The notes beneath the pieces were generated by a model, which was given only the letters and a program-made list of their open reading frames with translations, made no database searches and was not told the origin of the DNA. 64,000 nucleotides of DNA from Ceratodon purpureus (lineage: Eukaryota > Streptophyta > Bryopsida > Pseudoditrichales > Ditrichaceae). How positions within the stretch are numbered: the stretch's first letter is position 1; each line of letters begins with the position of its first letter. The DNA lies in contig CM026422.1 in assembly GCA_014871385.1 (NCBI GenBank), forward strand, positions 12,135,311 to 12,199,310, read 5' to 3'. The translations under genes were made by a program, and so were the position numbers. Shown here piece after piece: positions 22,334 through 64,000 of this stretch.

Positions 22334-23656
22334 ATGGAGTCGTGGGAAGATGAGATGGAGAGGAGTCTTGGGTTTGAGATTGGGTTTGAAGAGGACATGG
22401 AGAATGAACTTGAAAATGACCTATTTTTGCAGATGGTTGATGTTGTTTCAAGCAAGTTATTGGGTGAGCCTTCCACCAAGCCCAAGGTGGGAGGTAGTGT
22501 ACATGGAAGAGAGTATGTGTGGCGTGATAGAGAGGTATGTCACAATCTTCTCATGAAGGATTATTTTTGTGAGAATCCTACGTATGGCCCTAGGAAGTTC
22601 CGGAGACGGTATAGGATGCGGAAGGAACTTTTCACAACCCTTCATGATGTTGTTGTCAGTTTTAATCCATGGTTTATACTACGTGTGGATGCTACAAACC
22701 GTTTGGGTTTATCTTCTTTGCAGAAATGCACTGCCGCCCTCCGTATGTTAGCATACAGAGTAGCAGCTGATGCATGTGATGAGTACTGCAAATTAGGTGA
22801 ATCTACAACTCAAGAGTGCTTGGCCCGGTTTGTAGTTGCCGTTCGAGCTTGCTTTGAGTCTACTTATTTAAGGCAACCTACACGATATGATATAGAGAAG
22901 CAGATGGCTATCAATGAAAAGCGTGGATTTCCAGGGATGTTTGGGAGTTTAGATTGCATGCACTGGACTTGGAAGAATTGTCCTGTAGCGTGGCAGGGTC
23001 AATTCCAGGACAAAGACAAGAACAAGAGTATTATTCTCGAAGCTGTGGCAGATCAAAGTTTATGGATATGGCACGCTTTTTTTGGATTGCCTGGAGCCAA
23101 CAACAACATCAATGACTTGGACAGTTCTCCATTTCTTCTAAACCTACTGCGGGGAGCTGGTCATGACATTAGTTTTAAGGTAAATGGACATGTGTATCCT
23201 CGATACTACTTTTTAGCTGATGGCATTTATCCATCATGGGCATGTTTTGTGCAGCCAATTCATGAGCCACAAGATGAGATGAAGGAGCATTTTGCCAAGT
23301 GCTAAGAAAGGGCACGCAAGGATGTTGAAAGGGTTTTCGGGGTGTTGCAAGCCAGGTGGGAGATCATTAAGAACCCTGTGCGGCAATGGAATTTAGAGGT
23401 TATTGACAACATCATGATGGCATGCATTATTATACACAACATGATTTTGGAGGATGAGAAGGGATTTCATCTAGAGCCGTTTGCAGACTGCGGAGGTCAC
23501 TCCTTGAATACTCCAATGCCCTTCACATTTTGGGATTTACAAGAAGGCACTAGGGAGATTGAGAACATTGAGTCTCATTTTGCATTGAGAAATGATTTGA
23601 TAGATCATTTGTGGAAACTTAAAGGGAAGAGAAGAAGACTAGGTTTAATACAATGA
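22334..23656 (+). pseudogene. PIF/Harbinger DDE transposase with one premature stop
   Basis: A 440-residue frame from the ATG at 22334 has the plant transposon protein fold. The catalytic acids are Asp207 in GSLDCMHW, Asp296 in FLADGIYPSW and Glu332 in DVERVFGVLQARW. FFGLPGANNNINDLD is a further family signature. The frame is open apart from a TAA at codon 324 (23303-23305), where relatives have Gln, so a single C-to-T change explains it. The stop falls between the second Asp and the catalytic Glu, so the truncated product would be inactive. The rest looks hardly decayed, suggesting recent loss. Start choice: the ATG follows a GTG-initiated extension of three codons. Confidence 0.9.
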
Positions 23657-44655: not shown

Positions 44656-47600
44656 ATGCCTTCAACTACCAGAGAATCGTTAAACGCTCCAGGTCGAATA
44701 GTGTCGAGGGACGCTAAGCTACTAATTCGAGAACAACATTTAGCAGAAACCAACAACTACTACCTCGTCAGATGTAAGTGCAACATCTGTGTGGGGTCTC
44801 CAGCGTCAAAACGGTCCCCGAGGATGGCGAGAACTCATCTACACGATTTTGGGAGACACCCTTATTTTAGGGGTCGTACTCAGGTATGTTGCAGGCTCTA
44901 CTTAGATGGACCTTGGAATGTGTTTGAATTCTAAGAGCAGATGAGACAGAAGTCTAATTACTGTGCATTCCAAAACTCCGTCGCGCATGTGTCTGAAAGA
45001 GGAATGAACGTTAATTATTACAATGTAGTTTACGCCAGTGGATATGGTACTGAAATTTACATCTTAAGAAGATCTACAAGAGGCCTTAAGGATAGGTATG
45101 ACATAAGCGGTCATAACCTCTGAGATATATCTACTGGGGTTTAGTATACCTTACACTTCTATCGTGATGCTTGAAAATGACGCATGCGACTTATGAGCAG
45201 TTTAATCCAATTAGTTGCCTATCGGTGATACATGTATTTTTCTGTGGTCGGGGACATAGAATTCGTCATTTCCTGGTCGTTGCAGTACGTACCAATGTAA
45301 GAGAGTATAGAGTCAGTTTTTGGGACTAGGTCGTTCGATGAGGGATCGACTTATCCATGTCAACTTAATTTCGGTAGCACATCTGTATTTAAATTGTCCA
45401 TGTGTTGCATTCTGAAGCTTCGTATGGAACGTACTCCTTTATTGGTTCGAAATTGATAGGATCCTGAAGATGTCTTGATAACGTACAATATGAATGTGAT
45501 CTGAGAGAATCATATGCTCATTTCATAACCTTAGAGATTTAGTCATGCATATGTGGAGTACATATGAATGTCTTTGGACTTAGAATCCGTCGTACGTATG
45601 TAGCGCTGACACGATATAGAGATCATCACGTAACTGTCGAATGCACCTACAGCATTAACAGAAGCAGTCGCTAATTTGCAACGTCAAAAATGTCTGTGTA
45701 GGGCATTCCCCCGGATTCTTCAGACGAGGAATGGGATTCTCACATACAAGGAGAATACGGGAGATTTGGTAGGGCGAGGCTCCTCAGAGAAGCAGCAGAG
45801 GTTACTGATGCGAACATGAATATTTCTGGCCTTGTACAGAACGCATTTCACAGATACGAGGATATGTCTCGGGAGGCTGAAGAACACGGGGTACGTGATG
45901 AGAACCCTCCGTTTGCAGACCTAGCAGGAGATCTTCCGGTGCAGAATAATGAAGACAGCGATGACGAGGGAGTCCGAAATACCACGCAGGAAGAAGAAAA
46001 TGTGACCGAGGCGCAGCGGTTGTTAGAAGAAAGTTCACACACTCTCCTGTATGCTGGTGCTCGTTTGAGCAGCCTCAGCGCTACAATGATCCTACTTCAG
46101 GCATGCAGAACACACAAGTGCAGTAGTGCGTTCATCACCGAGCTCATGACGATACTGAAGAACGCCATTCTTCCCGAAATTAACACACTTCCTTCTAGCG
46201 AATATGCGGCAACGAAACTCTTGCGGAAGCTGGGACTGCAACACCAAGACATTGACGTATGTCCGAGCAACTGCATGCTGTATCGGGGGGAAGATGTACA
46301 CAAGGAACGCTGCACTAAACCAGGTTGTAGAGCTCCGCGGTACAGAAGAGTGGGTGCTTCGAAGGTGCCTTGCAAAGTTCTAAGATTCTTTCCTCTAATT
46401 CCCCGTCTCCAACGCATATATAGTACGCCCAAGCTATCAGCGCTACAGACTTGGCACGTAGCGAATAGAAGTAACGATGGGAAATTAAGACATGCCGCAG
46501 ACAGCAAGCAGTGGGCGTTTATTGACAGCATGGACGTATCCTTCAGCGCAGAGCATCGAAACATAAGACTGGGCCTTGCTACTGACGGGCTAAATCCATT
46601 TTCGGTTAAAAGGTCGACGTGGTCAACGTGGCCCGTTGTATTGGTAAACTATAATGTACCCCCCTGGCTCAGCACGAAGAAGGGTTTTCTAATTCTCAGT
46701 TTGATCATACCGGGTCCACAGTCAGTTACAGGGGCGTGCTTTGACGTATTTCTGCAGCCTTTACTGGAAGAACTGCAGACTTTGTGGCGAACAGATGGAG
46801 TGGAAACAATTGACGCAGCGAAGTATCAGGATCAGTGCACCTTCAAAATGCGTGCAGTCCTAATGTGGACCCTGCACGATTTCCCCGCCTATGGCGTGGT
46901 TTCTGGCAGCGTTACAAAGGGATATGTTGGTTGTCCGTGTTGTGGCGAAGCAACTGTGTCACGACGTTCAACTGCTCTAAAAAAAAACATCTACTCCTGC
47001 TTTCAGTACCGCAAGTGGCTCTCACCTAACCATCCGCTGCGTGTGGACACCGTGCAGTTTGGCGGCAACGAAGACCATGATGCAGCCCCGTCACGACCCA
47101 CAGGAGCTCTGACAATTCGTCATGGTATGCTGAGGCAGACATTTCTATATAACGGGGGGACCCCAAAGAGCTCGGACCCAGCTAGGAAGTATGGAATTAA
47201 TCGGGTCTCTACGCTCTATCAGCTGCCGTATTGGAAGGTAAACTTGTACACCCCTTCCCTTGAATTTAGCTCTCGAATTCTTCTAGAACTGAACCTTTAC
47301 TTCTGTTTGTTTTGGAATTTCCATTTCCCCATTCGCAGCTTTGCATGCTGATTGACCTATGTGTGTTAATTCACTGCATACAGGATCTGCCCCTTCGTCA
47401 CCTTATTGACGTAATGCATACAGAAAGAAACATATCGGCAAACATAATCAAGCATATTTTTGGGGAAAACGACACAGAGGAGGTACGGAAGGACATGGAA
47501 CAGGCAGGTGTAATGCCACAGCTTTGGCTACGACCCCGCCCAAACTCAGAAAGCTACATTCTACCCCGAGCCCCCTACGTGCTGTCTGAATCGGAGCGTA

Positions 47601-49260
47601 GATCCTTCCTTCGAGTGGTGGCTGAAACAAGAACTCCAATAGGTTTTTCCTCGACACTGCAGAAAGTTGCACAGAAAGACCGCCTCGCAGGTATGAAATC
47701 CCATGACCACCATGTTATCTTGCAGCAAATCATGCCTGCAGCCCTGCGAGGCAGTTTACAACCCGGGCCTAGGGACGCCGTGATCAGGATGGGCACCGTG
47801 TTCAGAAGGATATGTTCGAAAGTTATCGACCCAGTGGAAATTCCAGCCCTTATGAACTATACCGCTGAAACACTTTGTCTATTCGAACTTCACTTCCCTC
47901 CCAGTTTCTTCGATATAATGACTCACCTCTGTGTACACCTGGTGGAGGAACTAGCTCAATGCGGTCCCGTTCACAGTCGTTGGTGTTATCCAATCGAAAG
48001 GTATATGGGTGTCTTGGCAAGTTACGTCCGGAACATGGCCAGGCCCGAAGCCAGCATGGCGTCAGGATATAGGGATGACGAAGCCCTTGGCTTCGCAACA
48101 GAGTATTTTTCAGAATTTCCCCACTCCAGACGTCGAATCTGGGACGCCGAGGAAGAGCTCCGTGACTCGGAAGAGCTGGTCATGGGGAAAGTGAAACCCT
48201 TCACTCTGTCAGAAGAAGACATCAGTGACATACATGAGCACGCAATTGCTCACTCCGAGTACACAGAGGAACTATTGGGGTGAGTACTGTACAAGCCGCT
48301 TAAATTTTCTGCTTATGTTAACCTGTGCGTCGTTCTCATGCATGTTACTTGCTAGTTTAATAAAAGAAGTGCATGTGATACAAAGTAACCCGTGCATGCA
48401 TTCTCAGGGAGTACCGAACACAGAAAGAGTGTAGGATTTCGGAGCGTCAAGCCTTCAGAGCTGTGCACCAGCGGAGGAATGCAGGCAGACCTGTTACGTA
48501 TCCCTCTCATCTAGAAGCAATGCCATCTTTCTCAACGTGGCTACGAGAGCATGTCCTACAATTACAGGCTTCGAATTTCCCATTGGACGAGAAATTGATC
48601 CAATTATCAACACCGCCATCAGCCCATGCAGAGTCATACAACTATATGTGGTCCTATGGTGCTTTACTGAGATGCATAGAGGACAAAGGCAGCAGAGCGT
48701 ACGCAACATACGATTCCGGGATATCAACATCAGTAAGTGAACGTGCAGTGGACCGAATCGAGGTGGGAGTGTTGAAGGGAATTTATCGAGTAAACTTTTC
48801 AGGATGGGACATCATTTTTTTGAAAGTGGATTGGATCCGTCACGACATGGTGAAGAAGGACCGTCTGGGATTCTGGACGTGTAGAACGGACATCCGAGAA
48901 GATCGCCGGCGCATGAATCCGTATCTCTTACCCGGGAACGCCGAGCAGGTATTTTTTATGGAGGATGTTTTGACTCCAGAATGGAAGATTGTATTACGCC
49001 ATGATCCAAGAGGACGTCGGGTTATTGGGGATTCCGAAAACGCATTTGACTACAGTCACAGCGTGTTGGATAATGTTGATCGCAACTCGGCTATCGCAGA
49101 TTCAGTAGCCGACGCTGTGAACCAGCAGTCGCAGCTCAGACAAGTACCTATTGCACGAGTGCATGAACTGGATGCTAATCTCAGAAGAGAGGAAGATGAC
49201 TCCCATTATGATGACAACGAGTATGAAGATGAGCCAGAGTCGGACTTTGGCGTGTTGTAG
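44656..49260 (+). CDS. CACTA TNP2-type transposase with DUF4218 and DUF4216 regions
   Basis: Four exons, 44656-44883, 45702-47237, 47384-48279 and 48408-49260, close in phase to 1,170 residues. The N terminus has a Cys pair in YYLVRCKCNICVG. The tnp2 core includes LGLATDGLNPFS (Asp371), WPVVLVNYNVPPWL, LSLIIPGPQSVTG, MWTLHDFPAYG (Asp469) and GCPCCG (from Cys487). The third exon begins DLPLRHLIDVMHTERNIS, the classic join after PYWK. NYTAETLCLFELHFPPSFFD with HSRWCYPIERYMGVLASYVR is the DUF4218 region. VFFMEDVLTPEWKIVLRHDP near the C terminus is the DUF4216 region. The frame is open and all key blocks are present, so the protein may be functional. It cuts and joins the CACTA ends, in the nucleus. 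The ATG at 44656 is the first in the exon; an upstream start is possible. Confidence 0.92.
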
Positions 49261-49722
49261 TGGAGAAAGACGTAGCACGTAGAGAGCTGCAAGTTTTCTC
49301 GGTGATAGTTACGGCTATTCATGTTCCTTACGAAGATCATAGTACAGGGAATGTTGATTTCTAATATGTATAACCGTGATTTCTCGGCTTCGGCATAGAG
49401 TTAAGGTTTTAACAGACTCTTCAATATGAGGAACTAAACTATGTGCTCTACATTGGAAGTTTACATTTTTTCAAATACGCGGTCTACTTGTTTTCCCATT
49501 AACGACAGCATATCCTTGACGTCCTGTTGAAACGTAAATTGGAACATTTTCCGAGACAGCAGAATCTCATACAAAATATCAAGCATCAGTCAGCATGATG
49601 AATGATTAGTAATGTCCAGCAGAAGCTGTCCACATATCATCCAACACGTCACATTTACTACATAGTAACTACGTCAGAAAAAATCCCCATCCATAAATCC
49701 AGAACTCGGTGAAACAGCACCT
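49261..49722. other. CACTA sequence between the transposase stop and the nested element
   Basis: Non-coding sequence, probably the transposase 3' untranslated region and part of the right subterminal region. It ends with the target triplet CCT (49720-49722). Nothing else is recognised. Confidence 0.5.
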
Positions 49723-49756
49723 CATTAGGAGCAGTTTGGGGTCTCCAACGGGCCTT
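49723..49756 (+). repeat. Left terminal inverted repeat of the nested element
   Basis: It begins CATTAGGAGCAG and ends TCTCCAACGGGCCTT. It pairs with 60496-60529 at 27 of 34 positions with no gap, and is preceded by the CCT duplication. Confidence 0.8.
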
Positions 49757-49802
49757 TTCCATGCTTTCCGTGCCAAAGTTTTGGGCATGCCCGTGCACTT
49801 TA

Positions 49803-49829
49803 CCTGCTGGCACCAACTGTGCCAGCAGG
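49803..49829. repeat. Perfect 11-bp hairpin inside the left end of the nested element
   Basis: CCTGCTGGCAC (49803-49813) and GTGCCAGCAGG (49819-49829) are exact reverse complements around a 5-base loop. Each arm carries a half of the dispersed GCTGNCAGC motif, so this may be a paired binding site close to the terminus. Confidence 0.8.
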
Positions 49830-50489
49830 TCGCCAAAAGCGAGCCAAATCGCGAATGGGGGGGTCCGGCCAATGGTCGCGCAGGAAGGCTTCCCTTGCCC
49901 GCGCGTGTAGTCCCGCAGGTCGAGAACGGAGCCTCTTCGCGCACGGAATTCGAGCATTGCAGAAGGGTGTCAGCGGTGGTGGGCTTTATGAACGCCTGCG
50001 AAACTGACTCCACAGGCCACCTACCGAAATCGAATTGCCGCTCCCCCTTTGAGATGCAACGTGCACAAGGTGTTGATGTCGAAATGCTGCCAACGGTCAT
50101 TCCGAACCTCATGCGTTCCCCTGAGAGAGTTGTCGTTGTTGCGTTGTCAAGCAGGATGGAGCGGTGGAGGCCTCCAAAGGCTGGGCGAAGTTGTTCGATT
50201 TGGGTTGTGGGTGGTCACGCATTGTGCAGTAGAGATTTAGGGTTTAGCTGTAGTGGTCTTCCAACGCTGCCAGCGGTCTGCCATCCACATAGGTTGGAGA
50301 GAGTACCTGAGTTGGGAATTGGGGTTTCGGGATGAGGTTTTAGGGTAGGTCGTACCTTGGTTGCGAGGCCGTGGACGCAGGTTTCAGCCGTTCGTGATGG
50401 CGGAGGGTTTGTTGACAGCGTGTAGTTCTGGCGGATGATGACAGCGACGACACCATTTGTAAGTTTTTGAGTTCACAGTCGAAAATTTC
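49830..50489. other. Leader and promoter region of the 426-aa gene in the nested element
   Basis: GC-rich sequence without a convincing coding exon. A possible short upstream exon ending at a GTAAGT donor near 50461 exists but its frame cannot be joined with confidence. One motif copy lies at 50266. Confidence 0.45.
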
Positions 50490-51828
50490 ATGCATTCTAG
50501 TGGTATGGCTTCACGGCCAAACTCCCTCGTACAGAGTGTCATTCTGCATAATACTCAAGACTTGGAGGGCAACTGGATCCCCATGAAGGTGGATCGTGAT
50601 TCATGGGTTATGCTGCAACCAGCTTCGGATGGGCCTTGGGGTAGAGAGGCAAGGCGACATGGTGGAGAAAATTTTCGGGGGGCCTTCAAAGCGCAGATCA
50701 GAGATTTCTCTTGGATCTCCACGGAGCATGGAGCATGCGACCTCGATAAGGTGCTTGTGCAACATGCATATCAACCAAGGCATCTGCGCTTGGATCCTGC
50801 GGAGGCAGCAACCAAATTGGGAATGGCAAACTACCTGTACGCGTCGGTTTCGGAGGATTGGGTACATCCCGCATCTATCCTTGGTCCCATTCTTGTGCTC
50901 CATGTTGAGATTGGGGAGGCAACACGGAATCGACAGAGCCACGCGGAGTTGCTGGACATAGGTACATTCTTCCTTGGTGGTCAGTATTTGCCTCCAACAG
51001 GTGACACGCTGTACGGGAAGGTTGAAGCACTCCCGCTTCCAGGGTTCAACGATGTGGAGTGGCCTTTGCCAGACATGCACACATCTGAGGCGTTTAGAAC
51101 AAAGCTCACTCTCGATTTTGCAAATGCTATGAAAGCAACAACTGGTAGCAGCTTCGTCCACCAGCAATGGTTTATGCCAATCCATGTTATGGTTGATTTG
51201 TTTGCGGTAGCTGCTGACAGCATTAGGCGGACACCTACATTGTTTGTTTTGAGTAGTCCATCCGAGGCTCTGCTGAGCAGTCTAATGAACCCAGGGTGGA
51301 ACGAGAAGTTCCACATTGGCCAAGATGTCATCAAGTGCGTTGCCAACAGGACCAGCATTGTTTTCCGCTATCACGTGGGAAGACAAACATTATACACCAG
51401 GTTCATGTATACAAGGTATAAGGGGGCTGCCAACAGTCAGTGGGAAGCCTTGGATCACCTACCAGAGGAGGTGATGGTGGAAGTGTCTTGTATGTTCAGG
51501 GGGAACTTGCTGCCAACATTCGAAGTTGGCAAGGGTTGGCCAGTATCCCACCTGCGGCACGAAATTGCAATGGCACTTGGAGATGACGTGCCTGGGCAGT
51601 ACAACCTGGTTTTGATAGAGGCCAACGGTGTTCGTGAGAAAAAGGTACGAGTCTAGCCGAATTCATGTAGTCGTTTTGATGTGTTGGGAATTGGCTGTTC
51701 AGAGCTCCTTGCTGCCAGCAAACGAAAATGACAGGATTTGTTGGATGCAGATCAACCAGCGCCATGAGAGACACCTTACAGCTGCGGATGTCACGGTTCC
51801 CAAAAGGATGAAGATTGTGGAGCTGTAG
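50490..51828 (+). CDS. Nested-element gene A: 426-aa protein of unknown family
   Basis: Two exons, 50490-51644 and 51703-51828, join in phase 0 (AAAAAG/GTACGA donor, TTGGCTGTTCAG acceptor) to 426 residues. I see no signal peptide, membrane helix, coiled coil or known motif. The composition is that of a globular protein with many Trp and His (for example WFMPIHVMVDLFAVAADS, then SIVFRYHVGRQTLYTRFMY). A GCTGCCAGC motif lies in the second exon, read as LLPA. It is the only plus-strand gene of the element and diverges from nothing nearby. Two ATGs, at 50490 and 50505, are possible starts. It may serve in target recognition or regulation, but nothing in the sequence shows this. Confidence 0.65.
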
Positions 51829-52804
51829 GAAAAGTGATTTCGGGGATGGGTAGTCACAGTATGTGGGAAGTCATTAGGTTCTTCGCGAAGTCGTTAGCGA
51901 GTTCAGGTAGTGGTTTTGCTTACCATTCAGGACTTTCTGTGGGACATCCTGTATTAACGTGTTATATGGAGGCAAATTTGTGATTACCCTTGATCTTCGT
52001 GCTGCCAGCGGAAATAGAAAAGAAAAACAGTTACAATTACCAGTGGTGAATCCTAGGGTGCAAAATGAAAAATAGAATAAAATACAAGAAGTCTGAAGAA
52101 TGGCCGGGGTTTCAGAGGGCCTGGGTCTGAATCGCAAAATTGCTTCGAACTTGTGGTGGCGCCATTGACGCTGGAGCCTGCTGCCAGCGCAAAATAAGAA
52201 AAGAAAAACAATTGCATACAATAGAGCACATGACCCTTCAGAGGCACAAAATGGAGTTTGGCACTTGACAATTATGAAGTAATTAGGAAGGAATGTAAAG
52301 TTTGTTACTTCCTCCGAAGAGGCTGGCTCCTTCGTGAACCTGGTGCTCTGAACTGGCAACGGCGGGCACAATGCAGCTCTTGGTGCCAACAAAGACGAAA
52401 AAATGAAGGTTGCAAATAAAAAAAGAACCACGCTCGATTCTAATAGAACAAGATAAAAATAAAAAACAGTTGTACATAAGAGATGAAGTAGGTCGCAGAT
52501 GGTAAATAACAACAATGGCCAAAATTGAAAGGGACCATGGTGGCGAATAATGAAAGAAGAAAAAAAAAATGGCGGCTAAAGAGCAGCCCTTGCTGTCAGC
52601 AGTCCACAATAAAGAAGAAATACAGTTGCGAATAAAAAGGAAGGGTTACAAGAATGCCATATCTTTCAAAGAGACATGGCAGTCCAGAGGCAAATTGTTT
52701 TCAAGTTCGGAAAAGTTTAAGAGAGGTGGCCCATAAAAGTCCGGACCAGAAGTCGCTGCCAGCAAACCCCTAACCCGGCCTACAAAACTATCCAAGGTGG
52801 GAAT
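51829..52804. repeat. Motif-plus-A-rich degenerate repeats between nested-element genes A and B
   Basis: In this spacer GCTGCCAGC-like words at 52001, 52180, 52377 (variant), 52592 and 52755 are each followed within 30 bases by an A-rich tract such as AATAGAAAAGAAAAACAGTT or AATAAGAAAAGAAAAACAAT. The spacing is 166-212 bp. The pattern is a diverged tandem repeat whose best-kept part is the palindrome. Genes A and B converge on it. Confidence 0.65.
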
Positions 52805-54740
52805 CTACTCCACGTTTGCGTTTGTGGCAATTGCCTCAACAAGGCTCGACAGTCCCTCCATGTTGGTGTCGTCCTCGTTCTTCTCTGCTTCAGGTGGTCC
52901 TTGCGTGGTGGCGGATGAGTCCTTGTTCCCATCTCCAGATAGGGCTGCCTGGGTCTCCTGAGGAGAGCGTTGCGTGGGATCGAACGCCAGGGAGTCTGAG
53001 TCGGGGAGAGCATCCTCTGCAGTTGCCGGCAACAAACAAGAGTTAGAAAACAAGAAAATGTAAATGTAACAGCAAGGCAGGCAACAAGAAATGGGTAGAT
53101 GGGATGAGGGGCCACAAACCTTGGTCGCCCTTGGCCTTCTTCCACGGAAGCGCGGCCACTGAGGGGGCAGCGGGCCTCTTGCCGCCAGCACGTGGTGAAG
53201 CGGGCTCGGCCAGAAGGATCTCCTCCGTGAGGCGTAGTTCCTCCGCGGCCTTGGAGTCAAGGTCGAAGCCCCACTGCCCAAGCCACCCTCCAGTCATCCC
53301 CCGCTCGCATCGACGGCACCGGGCGTCCTGGGAGAAGACTGCCTCAAACATACAATGGGGATGTGCCAAGCAGCCGCAGAACAAAGGTACGCAGCAGGTG
53401 TCAACGAAGTAACGCTCGCAGAAGGGGCATGGGTCGTTCAGGGCTATTGGCAACACCTGGAACTCCAATGGATAACGAGCCAGCACCTTCTTCGGGCGCA
53501 AGAAAGCTGAAGCCAACTCCAAGGCCGAGATCTCCGCTGTCAGCGCGGAGACCTCGGCGTGGCGTCTCTGCTCATCGGCTTCCATCTCCTCCAACTTCTT
53601 GTAGACCCTGTCAATGCGGGCTTGGGCCTCCATCAGTGCCTTGCTTGCAAGCCCCAGCTTGTCTTGGCCTAAGCGGGCCGCGTGATCAAAGCGCCTCTTC
53701 TCTTGGTCGTTGCCATCAGCCGCGGCCTTCTTGGAGGCCTCGCGGGCGGAGAAGATGTCGTCATAGAGCTTGGACTCCTCGGCCTCCTTGGCTTTGATGT
53801 AGTCCCGCTGGGTTGCAAGGTCGACCTTCACGCGGTCCCGGCTGGCCTCCACCTTCAGAAGTGCCGCCTCCAAGGACTTCTTCTTGAGGCGCTGCTGCTC
53901 CAGGACCTGCTTCGGATCCGTTGCCACCAAGGGCTGCACCTTGATGGCAACGGCAGCAAGGGCCTTCACGGCCTTCTTCTCAGCCACGGCCTTGGCAGGA
54001 GGGGGCAGGGATCTAGGTCCCCTGACCTTCTTCGCCTCCGCGGCCGTGATCAAAGCCTTGGAGGTGGCTCCAAGTGGCTTGGCTCCTCCGCTCGACTCCG
54101 CCCCTCCTCCCTTGCCCTTGCTGCCAGCACCGGGGATGTGGCCAGCGAGGAAGTCGATAATGGCTTCAATCTGCTCCCTCAAGGCCGGGGGAGTCAACTT
54201 CTGCGGATTACGCCCTGGCAGCTTCTCACGCCCCTTCACGATTGCCTCCGCCTTCTGGGCGAAGTTGACATCCACGCCCTTCTCAAAGTAGAGGTGGCAA
54301 GCCCGAAGAAAGGAGGTCCCGAATGCCCAGTTGTCGGGGTCACCTCCATAAGTCCACCGGTACATCTCGCAGTATTTCCTCTGGGCCTCCGGATCCTCAC
54401 AGTCAGCAACGTAGTGCCGCCCAGAAGAACGCTCTGGCCATCTGTCGATGAAGTCGGCCTTCCTGCAATGCTTGTCGCCGCTGAGGTCACTGAACTTGAG
54501 CCCCTTGTTGGAGAGCTGCAAGGTGCGGGCGAAGAAGTCCTCATCGTAATCCGCAGCGTGCCTACCCAGCAGAAATGGGGCGAGGTGGTGGAGCTGTGCA
54601 TGAAGTGCAGGGGGTAAGCCGTCCAAGTCGAAGGCGTCATCCCACGGCGTCTCAACATCGTTGCCATCCTCCTTGCTGTCAGCAACCTCGACGACCTCCT
54701 TCTTCACGACGGCCTCCTTTCCCTTCCTACGGCTCGACAT
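52805..54740 (-). CDS. Nested-element gene B: 610-aa coiled-coil and RING-type zinc-finger protein
   Basis: Two exons, 53120-54740 and 52805-53016, join in phase 1 to 610 residues. The start MSSRRKGKEAVVKKEV is basic, suggesting nuclear entry. A low-complexity Ala/Lys-rich middle is followed by a long charged coiled coil (about residues 300-420, including KLYDDIFSAREASKKAA). Then comes a zinc module at residues 438-478: CPFC, a CC pair, CGC, HPHC and CRRC, a RING-like spacing. The tail is acidic. By analogy RING proteins act as E3 ubiquitin ligases, but an architectural zinc finger is equally possible. Several GCTGNCAGC copies lie in its exon. No frame breaks. Confidence 0.75.
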
Positions 54741-55039
54741 CCCTGGCGCTGGTAGTGCAAAAACAACACGTTTTACGAAAGGGGGATCGCGCATGGCAGC
54801 TGAAAAAGGGAAGACCACAAGCAATTGGGATTATTCTTGCAGATTACTGTAGTTTAGTTCTTACCCAAAAATCCTCACAGCTTGGAGGACCTTCGCGGCC
54901 ATGGCTGAACGACCCTTCTCAACTTTGCCATGGCCGATTTACTCCAACTCTACAGGAAATAGACAATCAGAAGAGAACAACTTAGCAATGGATGGGCAAC
55001 TTACCTTGAATTTCCTCACTGTCCGCGCGTGAAGACGTG

Positions 55040-55520
55040 CAGCTCGCCCCCTTCGCCTAACCTCCTTGTGCCGCAGCTCCTTCTGTCACAGCTCCTGAAT
55101 GTGCCCGAGCTCTTTGCGCCCCCTCTCCTTCTCTCGCAGCTCCTTGCGCCGCTGCTCCGCCGTGCTGCCGACGCTGCAGCTCCTTCCTCCGCTCCTCGCA
55201 GCGCTCCCTGCTCCTCACAGCCGCTGCCCTTCCTCCGGTCCTTGCAGCGCTCCCCGCTCCTCACAGCTACTGCGCCTTCCTCCGCTCCTCGTAGCGCAAC
55301 CTGTCCGTCACAGGTACTGCCCCTTCCTCCGCTCCTCGCAGCGCACCCCGGTCCCCAGCTCCTCAGAGCTACTGCCCCTTCCCGCACTCCTCACAGCTCC
55401 TCCCCGCTTCTGACAGCTCTCCCCCGCTTCGCACAACGCACCCCGCTCCCCTTCGCCGCACCTCCTGACCTTCTCCTTGCGCCGAAGCTCCTCCCGCTAG
55501 AAAGTCACCACGCCCCCTCC
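55040..55520. repeat. GC-rich minisatellite upstream of nested-element gene B
   Basis: A unit of roughly 60 bp built on CTTCCTCCGCTCCTCGCAGC and CTCCTCACAGCT recurs imperfectly about six times. The long plus-strand frame across it (Leu, Pro, Ser and Ala) is a by-product of the repeat and not a gene. Confidence 0.7.
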
Positions 55521-56556
55521 TCCACGGCCCGCTCCTCACGCTGCAGCTTCCCGCGCCCAAAAACCCCCACGGCCCCCACACACCTCAAGATGATGATGTC
55601 GCACGGCCTCAGCACATTCTTGCGACTCGCAACGGCTCGAAGGAGGTGCGTGCTCCTGAGGATCTGCACGGAGCCCACGGAACTTGGGTGTCAGTGCAAC
55701 CGCAAGGGGGCTTGCTGGAAGCAAGAGGACAGCGGAAGAAGAGAGGAAGAGAACCGCGCCAGAGTCAACGACATATAGCAAGGCCGAAGCCCCGTATGCG
55801 CTTACAAGAGTCAACCGCCAGCCAAATCGACAGCCGAGGTTTAAGGGGGGGTTGAGACTCTTAGGCTTCATTTATTGAAGGGATGTTAACAAGAGTTGGT
55901 TGGAACCTCACATTGACCTTAATTACCAATCATTGTCACGGCCTTACACCTCACTTCCCCATTTGTTGTGGATTAAAGAAAAACCGGCATAGAAATTAAA
56001 ATTAAAATTAAAATTAAAATTATCAAATGAGTAACATGTATGATTACTAAGACACATTCATTGAATTCATCATTATGAAGAGTTATAATCCCTTGGATTG
56101 GTCTTTCTAGTGAAATAACCACAAAACAAGTTTAGGGGAGAAACATGGTCTAACTCATTCAAAAAAAACATTGTTGCCAACCACATTCTACATAGGTATA
56201 ACATAATTACCAAGGCACATTGCGGTCAAGTCACACACGGCCATTGCTCGCGTCGTCACTGTCCTCATTGCTGCCAGCGACCTCACTGTCAGTGGACTCC
56301 CCTTCTTCTCCATGGGTGCCTCTTTAATAATTATCGAGATTAACTTAGCAATGGATAAGCCATTTTAGGGAATTGCTCGAAAAAATCCTCATTTTTTGAT
56401 AAATCTATCCGTAAATGGCTATTCTAGAATGAAACCAAAAAACATGTTAAAGAAGAACCACTGTCTACTCCGATCAAAAAAATTAAAAAAAATTAAAAAC
56501 TTGCTACATTATAGATGTCCATCCAATGAGTTTAGAACGCATAATTTGTACTCAAT
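55521..56556. other. Spacer between nested-element genes B and C
   Basis: The left part continues GC-rich; from 55860 on it is AT-rich, with AAAATT microrepeats near 55998-56020. One motif copy lies at 56270. No gene is seen. It holds the promoter of gene B and the 3' end of gene C. Confidence 0.5.
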
Positions 56557-59500
56557 TCATACAGGCTCGTTGCCAGCGTCATCGCTGTCCACGTTGTTGC
56601 CAGCGTCGTCACCGTCAATTGAGTTGCGTCCTTCCTCAAGATCCACATTGTTGCCCTCCTCCCCGGGGTCATCTTCGTTGGCAGATCCTCTTGCTTGATC
56701 ATTGTTGGCTCCATCACCTCCAACGGTGTTATCACACACCCAAGCTTTGCCAACACGCCGTCGCCTTGACCGCCAATTCTCTAAAGCCCTGGCAGCATTT
56801 GATCGATGCCACTGTTCTCGCCTTCTACGTGTAGCCTCCATGCGGGCCTCATCGTCCGGGGTATTTAGAACCCTGGTGCACTCTAATTTCTTCTTATACC
56901 GATGCTGTATATTTCGGTACCAATGTTGGAATTGTTGCAAAATAACACTGATGCGCTCTTTGCCACCACCGTGAGCTGTATGCGCTTGATTCGCTGCCTT
57001 CGCTTGATGATGGGATTTCTCCATACCCTGGCAACTCCATACGGCCAGACTACCGTATTCCTCCACAAACCAACTGCCATGCCTGACAATTACATGCTGT
57101 CAGCAGCCACTCCAAGGTTAGTCCTGGATAGAGAATTGACAAAAGTGAGGTCAGCCATCAACCCCTAATTCATCCCAAACCTCGTTCATATAACTCACCA
57201 TGTAGTGCGACACATGCTCCTCTCCGAAGGCCTCCAAAAATGTTCTCCCCCACGTTTCTATCTTCCCTTTGAACTGGAGTCGTTGTTCTGCTGTCAGCAC
57301 CAAGCCGCTGAAATATGGTAGAACCTCTTCAAAGGCTTGCCACATAGCAGCCCTTGCCCTACGATGTGCACCGCCGCCACTATTATTGCTCTCTGCTTGA
57401 CATATGTCTTTCCAGGCCTTGTCGTTTCCAGACCATACGCTTGGTTTAAATAGTCTGCTAGCAACAACCCCACTGAAAGATGGCTTCTGTGGCACATTCC
57501 CTGTGCTGCCACTCAGTTTCGGATCCTTTCTAATCTCCACATTGCCACCGTGAGCCCCGATAGCTGACAAGGACTTCTCCATTTGCTCTATGGCTGTAGC
57601 CCTCAGTCTTTGATCTTGTATGTTCCAGACATAAATGATGTGTTGATGCACAATCTTCTCCGCTAGGCGAACTAGGGCGTGAAGTGTACAAATGTGCACT
57701 CTTTGCAACGGAATTGGCAAGATAGGCCTCCACCTTGTATGTGCACGCATGTCACATGGTTCTGGCTCCACAGAGTTGGCAAACAGTCCCTCCACCCAGT
57801 TTGGTTTCCCACGTTTTCTGATGGCAGCACTCGCCTGGCTTGCTGTCCCTACGGTAGGCTTAGCCCTCTTCTGCTCGCAGTATATGCAGTTCATCGCACA
57901 CGACGGCCCCGACTGAAGCCCGTACATACACTTGATCGTCTTCATGTCCGCAGCGAGATGCCACTCCACATGGAATTCTCCAACTTCAGGGACCGTGAGT
58001 TTCTCGCCACTGGACTGTGCTGCAATCACAGATGGAAATTTGGATTTCCCAAATATCCACGACAGAACTTCGTAGGACTCTTTTTCCACTTGAAAGGTTG
58101 CCACTGGCCAGATTTCCTGCTCCGACTGGACTGAGAAAAACAGGGCATGGTTTCTCTGAATGTCTGGGTCGAGCGCCCTATTCATCAATGTGATGCTGAC
58201 CCGTTCAAACTTCTTGCCATTGACAATCTCGGCCTCGTCCAATTTCATGACAAATACCAGCGGTGCCCCTCTTAACTCTGTGGAAACATGGCGAGTGGAT
58301 GTGTAAGTCACGGTTAATTGATAACTAACCCTGCTGGCAGCAAACTCTGAAAACAACAGTCTGAGGTGATTACGTTACCTTCTTCCGTGATGCCGTAGAA
58401 GATCACCATGCTCCTTTGGACCACCTCAAGGTCTGTGAATAGGGAATTCTTGTCAGTCAAAACGACTTCCTTTACCATGTCCTCGGACTTCTTGTTCTTC
58501 TTAGAACTTGCTGGCAGCGTAAGTCGACCTTCAGCATGGTAGTATTCGCCAATATACTGTGGCAGGTTTGCATTTAACTCCTGCCGAAGCAGTTTCACGT
58601 GATAGGGGCTCGGCAAAATACTCCCGGAGACTCCTTTGTTCAGAGCAGCAATGGGAGCCTTCACAGATTTGTAGAGAGCACCATATCCCCGATGGGAAAC
58701 CCCTGCCTGGTCGCAAGCAGCAAGAATTTTGTCCGGTCCAATACTCTTACCAATCGATTTGAGCACATTTTTCGCAATATCTGACTGAACATGTGCCATT
58801 GCAGGCTGAGAAGCGAGCGCTACACCTTCATGCCGTGACAAAATTCGAGCTAGTGCTACTGCAGTCCTATTTTGGGACTCTTTATCCCCCCGCAGTCGAG
58901 AGCACTTCCGGTTCTCTCGGTTCCTTTCGACAACAAACTGCACCACATCTGGTTGCAGCACTGTCCGCACAAGCTTCACTCTTGCTTTTGATCCACCTGA
59001 TCCAGGTTTTAACTCGTGAATCCCTCTGAGAGCCCTCCTCCTATTTCGCATGCCCATGGGGGTCTCCTTCTCGAAGCTGGCCCTCCGCTGGCAGCGGTCA
59101 ACGTCTTCTTGGAGACCCCGCACATGGCGCTCCAATTGCTCCACCCTTTGGGCATGGCAATCACGGACAGCCTGTAATTCAGCTTGCAAATCCCTGCATT
59201 TCTTCTCTAACTCAAGGCAACGCATTCTCCCCAATTGGACATCTTGGGCTGCCCTTGAGTTGCTGGCCAGAGCTTCGCCTCTAAGCTGAAGCACTTCTTC
59301 GCTCAACTGTGCCAACTGGATCCGCGTCTCCTCCTCTGTAGAACCATGTACACAATGATCCAGCAGCCTGTGCGTATATCCGCGAAGACCCTGCTCTCCA
59401 TGACATATGAATTCAACAAACTCTTTTAGCGACTTGATTGGAGGTGGCTTCCCTGTCATTGGGTCAACAGGGTAAATGTCTCCATTGATCCACAAGTCAA

Positions 59501-59651
59501 TGTTCGTGTCTCCACGCAACCTCCGTGTTGGAAACGAGCTCCTCATGCACAGCTCCACTTGCGTAGAACCTCGTCTCATGACCGGGGCATAGCGTGTGTC
59601 CAGTGCAAAGTGGGGAATGTACTGATTGCTTCGTTCAGCCCTTGCTGCCAT
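56557..59651 (-). CDS. Nested-element gene C: 986-aa candidate transposase
   Basis: Three exons, 58379-59651, 57199-58346 and 56557-57096, close in phase to 986 residues. The first exon has a coiled coil (about residues 105-195, for example RCLELEKKCRDLQAELQAV). The second has HLAADMKTIKCMYGL (Asp558) followed by SCAMNCIYCEQKR (Cys578, Cys581). That resembles the [GA]D[LM]K...G...CxxC arrangement found in several eukaryotic DDE-type transposon proteins. The third begins HVIVRHGSWFVEEYG and contains WSCQGMEKSHHQ (Glu833) and HTAHGGGKER, which could supply the acidic third residue. The C terminus is strongly acidic. The last intron's acceptor CAG lies inside a GCTGNCAGC motif copy. Catalytic assignment is inference from pattern; I cannot name the superfamily. 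Confidence 0.75.
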
Positions 59652-60495
59652 CGTGGACCCTACAGTCGGTAATCTTGATTGAATCTCCCCTGGTCACACT
59701 TGGTGATTTGCTGTTATTCGAGAGAACTTGTTCTGATCTTCGGACACCTCCTACACCCAATGAAAAACTGAATTCACAACCTCAAATACTCCGAACCTAA
59801 TTCGATAGACCTGCGTGGCATCTACAAGCGCTATCGACCACGAAACCTACATTGCCTTATGCCGTTGTGGCAGCAAGGGCTAATGAAATCGAAATTCAAA
59901 TTGCTCAAAAACCCAGTAGCCCCTGAACACCCCACAAAGGTTTATCGAATTAGGTTAACTTACCTTCCCTTCAAGTACATCAGTTTTCATCTCTTCGTTG
60001 AAACCTTGGTCGCCGACTGAGAACAACCCCTCGCCGCCGTCGCTGCCAGCGGACGCTGCCAAGAAATGAATTGCAATCTCAATTTTGCTCCTCCGGTCTG
60101 GGGCGCCATCGCCACTCGGAATCTTTCCCGCAAATCACATACGACTGTGCGTCCCACAGTGCCAACAACGACTTGCTTGAAGCAGAAGAGGGCGCTTCGT
60201 TTTCTTGGTGCTGAACGGCGTAGAGCCGGTGGCGCCATCGCGCCCAGACCGTTGTGGCAGCAATTCGAAGTTGACAATCCGGGGATCGAGGCAACGGATC
60301 GAGGCACTTCATTAATCGCCGAGCAATAAATCCCAAGGATTGGCGCTCAACAACCACCGCCACGCCCTCTCGCCAACAAGGCAAAATCCGGCCACGCAAC
60401 TCCCCTCCGTCCGCTTCGGGCAGCGTTTCAGACCCCTGCTGACAGCGACAGAGGGGGTTTTGGGCAGGCAGCCCACCTAATCCGGGCTGCCTTAC
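59652..60495. other. Upstream region of nested-element gene C, to the right terminus
   Basis: This contains the leader and promoter of gene C and the right subterminal region. Two motif copies lie at 60042 and 60438, the first followed at once by a near-copy (GACGCTGCCAAG). GC-rich frames here match nothing. Confidence 0.5.
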
Positions 60496-60529
60496 AAGGC
60501 CCGTTGGAGAGCTCATTTTTCCCCTAATG
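60496..60529 (-). repeat. Right terminal inverted repeat of the nested element
   Basis: Read inward on the minus strand it is CATTAGGGGAAAAATGAGC followed by TCTCCAACGGGCCTT. It pairs without gaps with 49723-49756 and is followed by CCT at 60530-60532. Confidence 0.8.
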
Positions 60530-60837
60530 CCTGTAACGAACAGAGTACAAAGGGAACGAAAAAATTGAACCTTTAACGATTTCTGTTAACGGTCCTTTAT
60601 CGTGTATCTTTTACGAAAGGAGCTCTGAAACGGGCAGTAATTTGAAAGGGTCACCCGCAGATGTGTACCCGATATACATTAAGAAAGGACCCACCCGGGC
60701 CTGTGGATACCGAGAGTCACAGCTTCGCGTCACCGATTGGTCGGGTGATACCATTGGAGGGCCAGAACTGGTCAGACGACGGAGAGGAGAACGAGCGTCG
60801 CCGCCCCCAAGTCGTATGGGACAGGTTTCCACTAGTG

Positions 60838-63087: not shown

Positions 63088-64000
63088 TAAGAAAGGAAAC
63101 ATCCTCGCCCCTAGTAGTTGATAAGAAAGGAAACATCCTCAGCCTCGGTCGTGGAGGAGGCGGTACAGGCTTGTTTGCAACTGAGCCAGGCAATGGGGCC
63201 GTTATTTAGCAGCAAGACCACTCCGGATCGTGACTTCCTGTCATTGGTGTCTTGGCCATAGTCGGCGTCGCAAAAGGCCGTGAGAAGATGCGGGGGATTA
63301 CTGCTGTAGAAACCAATGCCGTAGTTTTTGGTTGCCTTCAAGTAGCAGACTACTTTCTTGAGCGCAATACAGTGTGACTGAGTATAGCAGTGGTTGAAAC
63401 GGGCACAGCTACTGATGACATATGCGATATCAGGGCGAAAGCCCAGGGCAACGAATGCAACACTGCCAAGCAGTTGTTTGTAAGGGAACTCCGGTGTTTG
63501 GTCGTCTGCTTTGTCATGGTCCATATTAGCATGTAGCTTTAGGTTTGGATCTGCTGGTACCTGCACAGGATGGAGGTTCGTGTATCCATAGCGCTTTAGC
63601 AGGCGTTCAATGTACTGAGTTTGATCGAGGAATAAAGATAACATGCTCCTGTTTCTTGTGATATGAAGTCCCACATAGGTATCGGGGTCATTGTGTCTCA
63701 CTTGGAAGACATCGTTCATCTCGTCCAGGATTGTTGTAATTGAACTCCTTGTTTTGGCTGCTACTAAGCCATCATCATCAAAGATGGGGAGAAGAATTAT
63801 GGGTTCAACCGTGGAGATGTACAGACAGAGGTCTGCATCAGTGGGTTTCAAGGTGTGCTTTGTGAGGAATCGGTGGAAACGTCTGTTCCAAACGCGGGAC
63901 GCTTGACGAAGGCCATAAATCGATTTCTTGAGGCGACACACTCGTTGAGGGTGATCAGCGTCTTCAAAATATGGGGGTTGTATCATGTATAGCTCTTTCT
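63088..64000 (-). mobile_element. Ty1/Copia LTR retrotransposon fossil, 3' part of pol (reverse transcriptase and RNase H), runs off the right edge
   Basis: On the minus strand the end of the reverse transcriptase and the RNase H region are recognisable. RLKKSIYGLRQASRVWNRRF, LFLDQTQYIERLLKRYGY, KQLLGSVAFVALGFRPDIAY and LTAFCDADYGQDTNDRKS are standard Copia blocks. The element is incomplete within the window: no LTR is seen at its left end, and the upstream gag, protease and integrase would lie beyond 64000. It ends abruptly at about 63088. A 22-bp direct repeat, built on TGATAAGAAAGGAAACATCC, lies at that end (63087-63108 and 63118-63139). It looks broken but moderately young. Confidence 0.9.

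Follow-up and report, generated by a model that had tools for sequence, protein, structure and literature searches.

The element, its ends and its copies

The DNA analyzed here, a 64,000-nucleotide stretch of the moss Ceratodon purpureus (contig CM026422.1; hereafter, the window), contains a 10,807-bp element with three open genes, A, B and C, nested in a CACTA-type transposon. A first-pass annotation, made from the sequence alone, had described its ends as a 34-bp inverted repeat without gaps in which 27 positions match; coordinates and score were reproduced, and the 12 adjacent registers gave at most 12 matches in 34. The CCT triplets reported at either side of the element and the three open genes are also present, and the open reading frames (ORFs) scanned reach no curated Pfam cut-off. 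Nesting in a CACTA element was confirmed as well: upstream host ORFs match Transposase_21 (3.3e-66) and DUF4218 (2.3e-29), with DUF4216 below the cut-off (1.2e-4), and the 300 bp to the left of the element occur in three more genome copies at 86-91% identity, indicating that the host is a repeated CACTA-type element. Coordinates are collected in Table 1.

Further copies with the same ends, proposed as a check in the first-pass annotation, were located in large number in an assembly that totals 362 Mb in 151 contigs. All 40 scored matches to the first 78 bp of the element (the best 40 of 438 candidates) were 100% identical, and the 40 scored matches to the last 78 bp (of 676 candidates) were 99-100% identical, one of them over 76 bp only. 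When the scored left-end and right-end matches were paired by hand, at least 19 paired copies were defined, including that of the window, of which 15 measure 10,801-11,081 bp and four 3.5-6.2 kb. Four full copies compared with the window copy showed 99.64-99.86% identity with at most one gap. The gene C frame and the main frame of gene B are intact in all five of these full copies; the gene A frame was checked in four. Among 102 scored matches to gene C exon 2 (of 1,108 candidates), 63 were free of stops, as counted by hand. A non-autonomous 451-bp form, which retains 118 bp at the left and 68 bp at the right and bears two sites of the palindrome GCTGNCAGC discussed below, was found in five copies (L001, L002, L006, L007 and L008), four identical and one with a single-base difference. 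Because full copies, ends and 451-bp forms are near-identical, the family has undergone a recent burst. These results support the identification of the element as an autonomous-looking DNA transposon with many copies and exactly the ends first described.

Table 1. Positions of the element's features and of the adjoining host genes in the window
Feature	Position	Strand	Evidence
Left terminal inverted repeat, CATTAGG...	49723..49756	+	27/34 vs right end; genome matches to first 78 bp
Right terminal inverted repeat, ...CCTAATG	60496..60529	-	27/34 vs left end; genome matches to last 78 bp
CCT left of element, pre-existing target	49720..49722	.	empty sites L078, L079, L080
CCT right of element, pre-existing target; three empty sites show CTT	60530..60532	.	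empty-site comparison
Host element: transposase of CACTA type with its partner ORFs (Transposase_21, DUF4218; DUF4216 weak)	45702..49260	+	Pfam
Gene A exon 1, with the BAH-like N-terminal domain and the beginning of the ubiquitin-like C-terminal region	50505..51644	+	ORF, 29 homologues, low-confidence model, fold search
Gene A exon 2, joined by a predicted splice; the whole protein has 421 aa	51703..51828	+	sequence
Gene B: coiled-coil protein, RING-like Cys/His cluster	53043..54740	-	ORF
Gene B likely C-terminal exon, splice read by eye	53016-52805	-	sequence
Gene C exon 1, encoding a coiled coil and the part ahead of the catalytic domain	58379..59651	-	sequence, relatives
Gene C exon 2: D438, D535, C555/C558	57199..58277	-	sequence, alignment
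Gene C exon 3: H785/H790, E810, C-terminus	56557..57096	-	alignment; intronless relatives
18 GCTGNCAGC palindromes: exons, an intron, intergenic DNA	50266..60446	.	count vs Markov model

Insertion without target-site duplication

At four insertions, comparison with empty sites showed that target bases were neither duplicated nor lost. A genome search with the left flank was made for three copies and gave an empty site for each; that of a fourth copy was recognized when its flanks were compared with the window. For the insertion in the window, three uninterrupted host repeats (L078, L079 and L080) read GCACCT|CTTGTAACG, without a gap at the insertion point, and both window triplets therefore pre-dated the insertion. 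Copy C1:24061880 has ATG on both sides, and its empty site, 96% identical, has the sequence TTCATG|ATGTGCC; thus, ATGATG was already present before the element arrived. The empty site of C4:11347451 is 99% identical and gapless. For C4:21163936, the joined flanks match, with no gap, a repeat in the window (22895-23455; junction 22985/22984, reverse strand). We take the reverse strand of this repeat to resemble a plant PIF/Harbinger-type transposase.

The remaining 18 of 22 insertions were judged by flank comparison only. The 22 comprise the window copy, five 451-bp copies and the 16 of 18 other paired copies in which both ends are standard; two of the 19 paired copies, whose last bases differ, were left out of the count. 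One of the 16 shares 3 bp with its opposite flank, and none of the 22 shares 4 bp or more. The first-pass annotation had read the CCT triplets as a 3-bp target-site duplication, as expected of an ordinary cut-and-paste element, and this reading could draw on the paired CCT of the window, the paired ATG of C1:24061880 and a frequency of 3-bp sharing that slightly exceeds chance (2 of 22, expected 0.34, P 0.046). However, empty sites disprove it at the four insertions that have one: the CCT and ATG pairs both pre-exist, the empty host copies keeping both flanking triplets in place of the single CCT that had been anticipated, and C4:11347451 joins without a gap to a nearly identical site. The 3-bp duplications expected at other copies also failed to appear, as 20 of the 22 insertions share no 3 bp. 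We regard this explanation as having almost no chance of being correct.

The target itself is weakly symmetric about the junction, in the form ANN|NNT. The third position outward in the flanks is T in 34 of 62 cases (p 1.7e-5 before allowing for the 12 positions examined), with 23 of 37 at the right end and 11 of 25 at the left, the left alone not being significant. Symmetry centred on the junction is what a zero stagger predicts. Absence of a target duplication would also be expected if a Helitron mechanism, a tyrosine recombinase or host end joining at blunt breaks, rather than gene C, had inserted the element. We consider such a route very unlikely, since terminal inverted repeats are present at both ends, Pfam scans of five element ORFs revealed no helicase, Rep or recombinase family, gene C has a DDE-type triad, and at the four insertions that have an empty site no base is gained or lost at the joins, as would be unusual for end joining.

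Predicted proteins and distant relatives

Gene C occupies 59651-56557 of the minus strand in three exons, and the join between exons 2 and 3 is supported because its relatives P0090 and P0091 are intronless. The candidate catalytic set consists of D438, D535, C555/C558, H785/H790 and E810, with C(2)C and H(4)H between the second D and the E. The D...CxxC...E pattern of the first-pass annotation corresponds to this set, with H785/H790 and E810 in exon 3, and the DDE-type transposase proposed there is supported. In 55 aligned rows, the first D is conserved in 49, the second in 54, and the two cysteines in 52 and 53. Most other rows stop at or before the intron, and the last H pair and E were found in four sequences (the window, P0090, P0091 and P0092). 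A structural model of the relative P0091 predicts a RAG1-type RNase H fold with a zinc-binding insertion. Pfam matches of gene C below the cut-off (Filament, 0.01, exon 1; CENP-H, 0.0044, one of 55), like that of gene A given below, are mostly coiled-coil or single-member and look like chance. NCBIfam gave nothing near its cut-off for P0091, P0101 or gene B. In the fern Adiantum nelumboides, the later part of protein P0081 resembles the N-terminal half of gene C, placing the family in ferns; the start of P0081 is unrelated to gene C and by eye retroelement-like.

For gene A, 29 homologues were found, including P0128 of C. purpureus, and BAH folds rank top for its low-confidence model in both Foldseek and VIA. 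None of the 29 matches Pfam BAH, and three match Glyco_hydro_4C weakly (best 0.0056, residues 310-344 of P0101). The RING-like Cys/His pattern of gene B was recognized by eye, and the finger has no Pfam match.

Altogether, we consider it probable that the element is a recently active, autonomous-looking cut-and-paste transposon with a DDE transposase of RAG1/Transib fold, zero-stagger insertion, and A and B as accessory genes. Several observations weigh against this interpretation. The link to the RAG1 fold comes from one predicted model (mean predicted local distance difference test, pLDDT, 72.8; predicted template-modeling score, pTM, 0.57), made on P0091, which is approximately 42% identical to the window protein, and pLDDT falls below 50 over the part that bears the last H pair and the E. 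For other HzTransib chains the VIA Z score drops to 7.3-10.1, close to the 6.7 of an unrelated row. Another H(4)H, HICTLH at 619-624, is kept in 54 of 55 rows and is thus better attested than H785/H790, a pair that occurs in four sequences and that we equated with RAG1 H937/H942. At the sequence level, gene C has no Pfam family at the curated cut-off; profile searches of PDB sequences, taken up to an E of 10, picked up no chain of RAG1 or Transib; and hhalign against the window's CACTA transposase gave a probability of 0.2%. For gene A, the quality of the model is low (61.6; pTM 0.39), with a best Foldseek E of 0.025. Finally, the empty site of C4:21163936 is 64-78% identical to the filled copy, and it is the weakest of the four.

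The same genome holds a second set of families, whose gene C matches are mostly 40-47% identical to P0091 (51 of 1,787 candidates scored). Their exon layout matches that of the present family, and all three copies inspected (C1:25124933, C3:18380585 and C6:105265898; L093-L095) end sharply on the right in ...CTCCTAATG; left ends were not found in 8.7 kb at each of two copies. A gene B homologue (39%) is present at one of two distant copies inspected. To the left of a distant gene C copy, a 1,109-codon open frame runs from position 2004 of L096 into L098, to 330, with a BED-like finger by eye, and perhaps belongs to a nested hAT element. L098 likewise holds a GC-rich repeat; in the window, a GC-rich imperfect tandem repeat with a 46-47 bp unit lies upstream of gene B (55173-55369).

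Copy C1:26353172 (L041, L022) has flanks that are inverted copies of each other, 94% identical over 380 bp, and sits inside, or created, an inverted repeat. A Copia-type reverse transcriptase fragment lies beside the element in the window (63111-63998; RVT_2, 7e-23), and Rfam yielded nothing at gathering scores within 49500-60800. A viral or phage origin was rejected: 27 viral-contig stretches matched a pattern, none encodes a relative, and there was no phage match.

Relation to known systems and significance

RAG1/Transib systems have recombination signal sequence (RSS) termini and a 5-bp target duplication. Gene C resembles them in its predicted RAG1-type fold and in its C(2)C / H(4)H / E spacing. 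In contrast, it has no sequence-level match to either in the PDB, the termini (CATTAGG) are not RSS-like, there is no 5-bp duplication, and the RING-like finger resides on a separate gene. The first-pass claim that the gene set is unlike known superfamilies stands in part: the set is not that of CACTA, and hhalign shows no match to the window's CACTA transposase, but the predicted fold and the spacing point to RAG1/Transib.

According to the excerpted text of Kojima (2025; PMC12730594), the CMCT clade comprises EnSpm/CACTA, Mirage, Chapaev, Transib, Plavaka, ESTA and Lanisha; D/D/E with C(2)C and H(3-4)H is common to CACTA-type enzymes and RAG1; Lanisha is among the EnSpm-like lineages with these motifs; and the clade makes 2-5 bp target-site duplications. 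The element shares with this clade the C(2)C and H(4)H of gene C and CA..TG termini (CATTAGG..CCTAATG), and differs in its gene set and in the absence of a duplication. From EnSpm/CACTA it differs further in that gene C lacks PF02992 and the termini read CATTAG, not CACTA. Lanisha was put forward as a superfamily by Maumus, McDaniel and Carey (Repbase Reports 20:2521, 2020). There is, in our estimate, an even chance that the element is Lanisha or a family of Lanisha and so already named: its gene C motifs agree with those given by Kojima, whereas the duplication length stated for Lanisha's clade in the same excerpt (PMC12730594) does not fit. The comparison with Lanisha is by description only. 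The authors of Lanisha reportedly work on C. purpureus.

Duplication-free insertion by a DDE enzyme is already in print for Spy, of the PHIS superfamily, whose precise insertion is described, in the portions of PMC4482050 and PMC11304231 consulted, as involving blunt breaks. Spy has a PHIS-type transposase and an AAATTT target, in contrast to the predicted RAG1-type fold and ANN|NNT target of the element, and no Pfam match to a PIF/Harbinger-type or other transposase was obtained among the element ORFs scanned. Among the papers listed by the literature searches, none described the present element or reported duplication-free insertion for the RAG1/CMCT fold, although Lanisha, known by description only, could cover the element.

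The palindrome GCTGNCAGC occurs 18 times in the 10.8-kb element versus once in the remaining 53 kb of the window; a first-order Markov model predicts 0.32, with a maximum of three in 300 simulations. Five full copies carry 18-19 sites each, and 48.5 kb of flanks carry none. By analogy with the Arabidopsis VANDAL elements, whose VANC anti-silencing proteins target dense family-specific motifs (PMC5735166, in part), GCTGNCAGC may be the binding site of an element protein, as both are short motifs that are dense in one transposon family and rare elsewhere; the VANC21 motif, as far as that source goes, is mainly non-coding and often tandem, whereas GCTGNCAGC is palindromic and also lies in exons. 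Alternatively, the sites could be a by-product of coding bias or shared repeat ancestry. Nine of the 18 sites are exonic, and of the seven stretches inspected in or next to the distant families (L093-L099), four hold one or two sites and three hold none, so that the density may be peculiar to the present family. However, the excess over expectation, the empty flanks, and the spread of sites across each of the genes, into an intron and the DNA between genes, and into the 451-bp form make a by-product rather unlikely.

We propose that the gene C protein, with its predicted RAG1/Transib-type DDE fold, would bind the CATTAGG...CCTAATG ends, excise the element and join both ends to directly opposite target phosphates. 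With a stagger of zero, no target base would therefore be duplicated or lost. Genes A (BAH and ubiquitin-like) and B (coiled coil and RING-like finger) would supply accessory proteins, which most likely act on chromatin or ubiquitin and may thereby keep copies expressed or direct them to open targets; the GCTGNCAGC palindromes might be bound by an element-encoded protein. Whether all this amounts to an undescribed plant lineage of RAG1-fold transposases, with blunt joining, a chromatin reader and a RING-like protein on separate genes, and GCTGNCAGC as a self-recognition mark, is more doubtful, and we put it forward tentatively.

The length of the target duplication is a widely used signature of DDE superfamilies. 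Annotation based on it could overlook this element or call a false duplication, as happened with CCT here. If our reading is correct, a zero-stagger RAG1-fold enzyme beside relatives with 2-5 bp duplications would make it possible to compare, in nature, what determines the stagger in this fold. RAG1 is the enzyme that cuts human antibody genes, and gene C is predicted to share its fold. RAG2 carries a chromatin reader, and the separate reader and RING-like genes of the element would, if real, functionally parallel the RAG2 reader and the RAG1 RING. The accessory genes raise the possibility, which can be tested, that a plant transposon encodes a chromatin reader, and the many near-identical copies with open genes make the family a candidate living transposon system in a moss.
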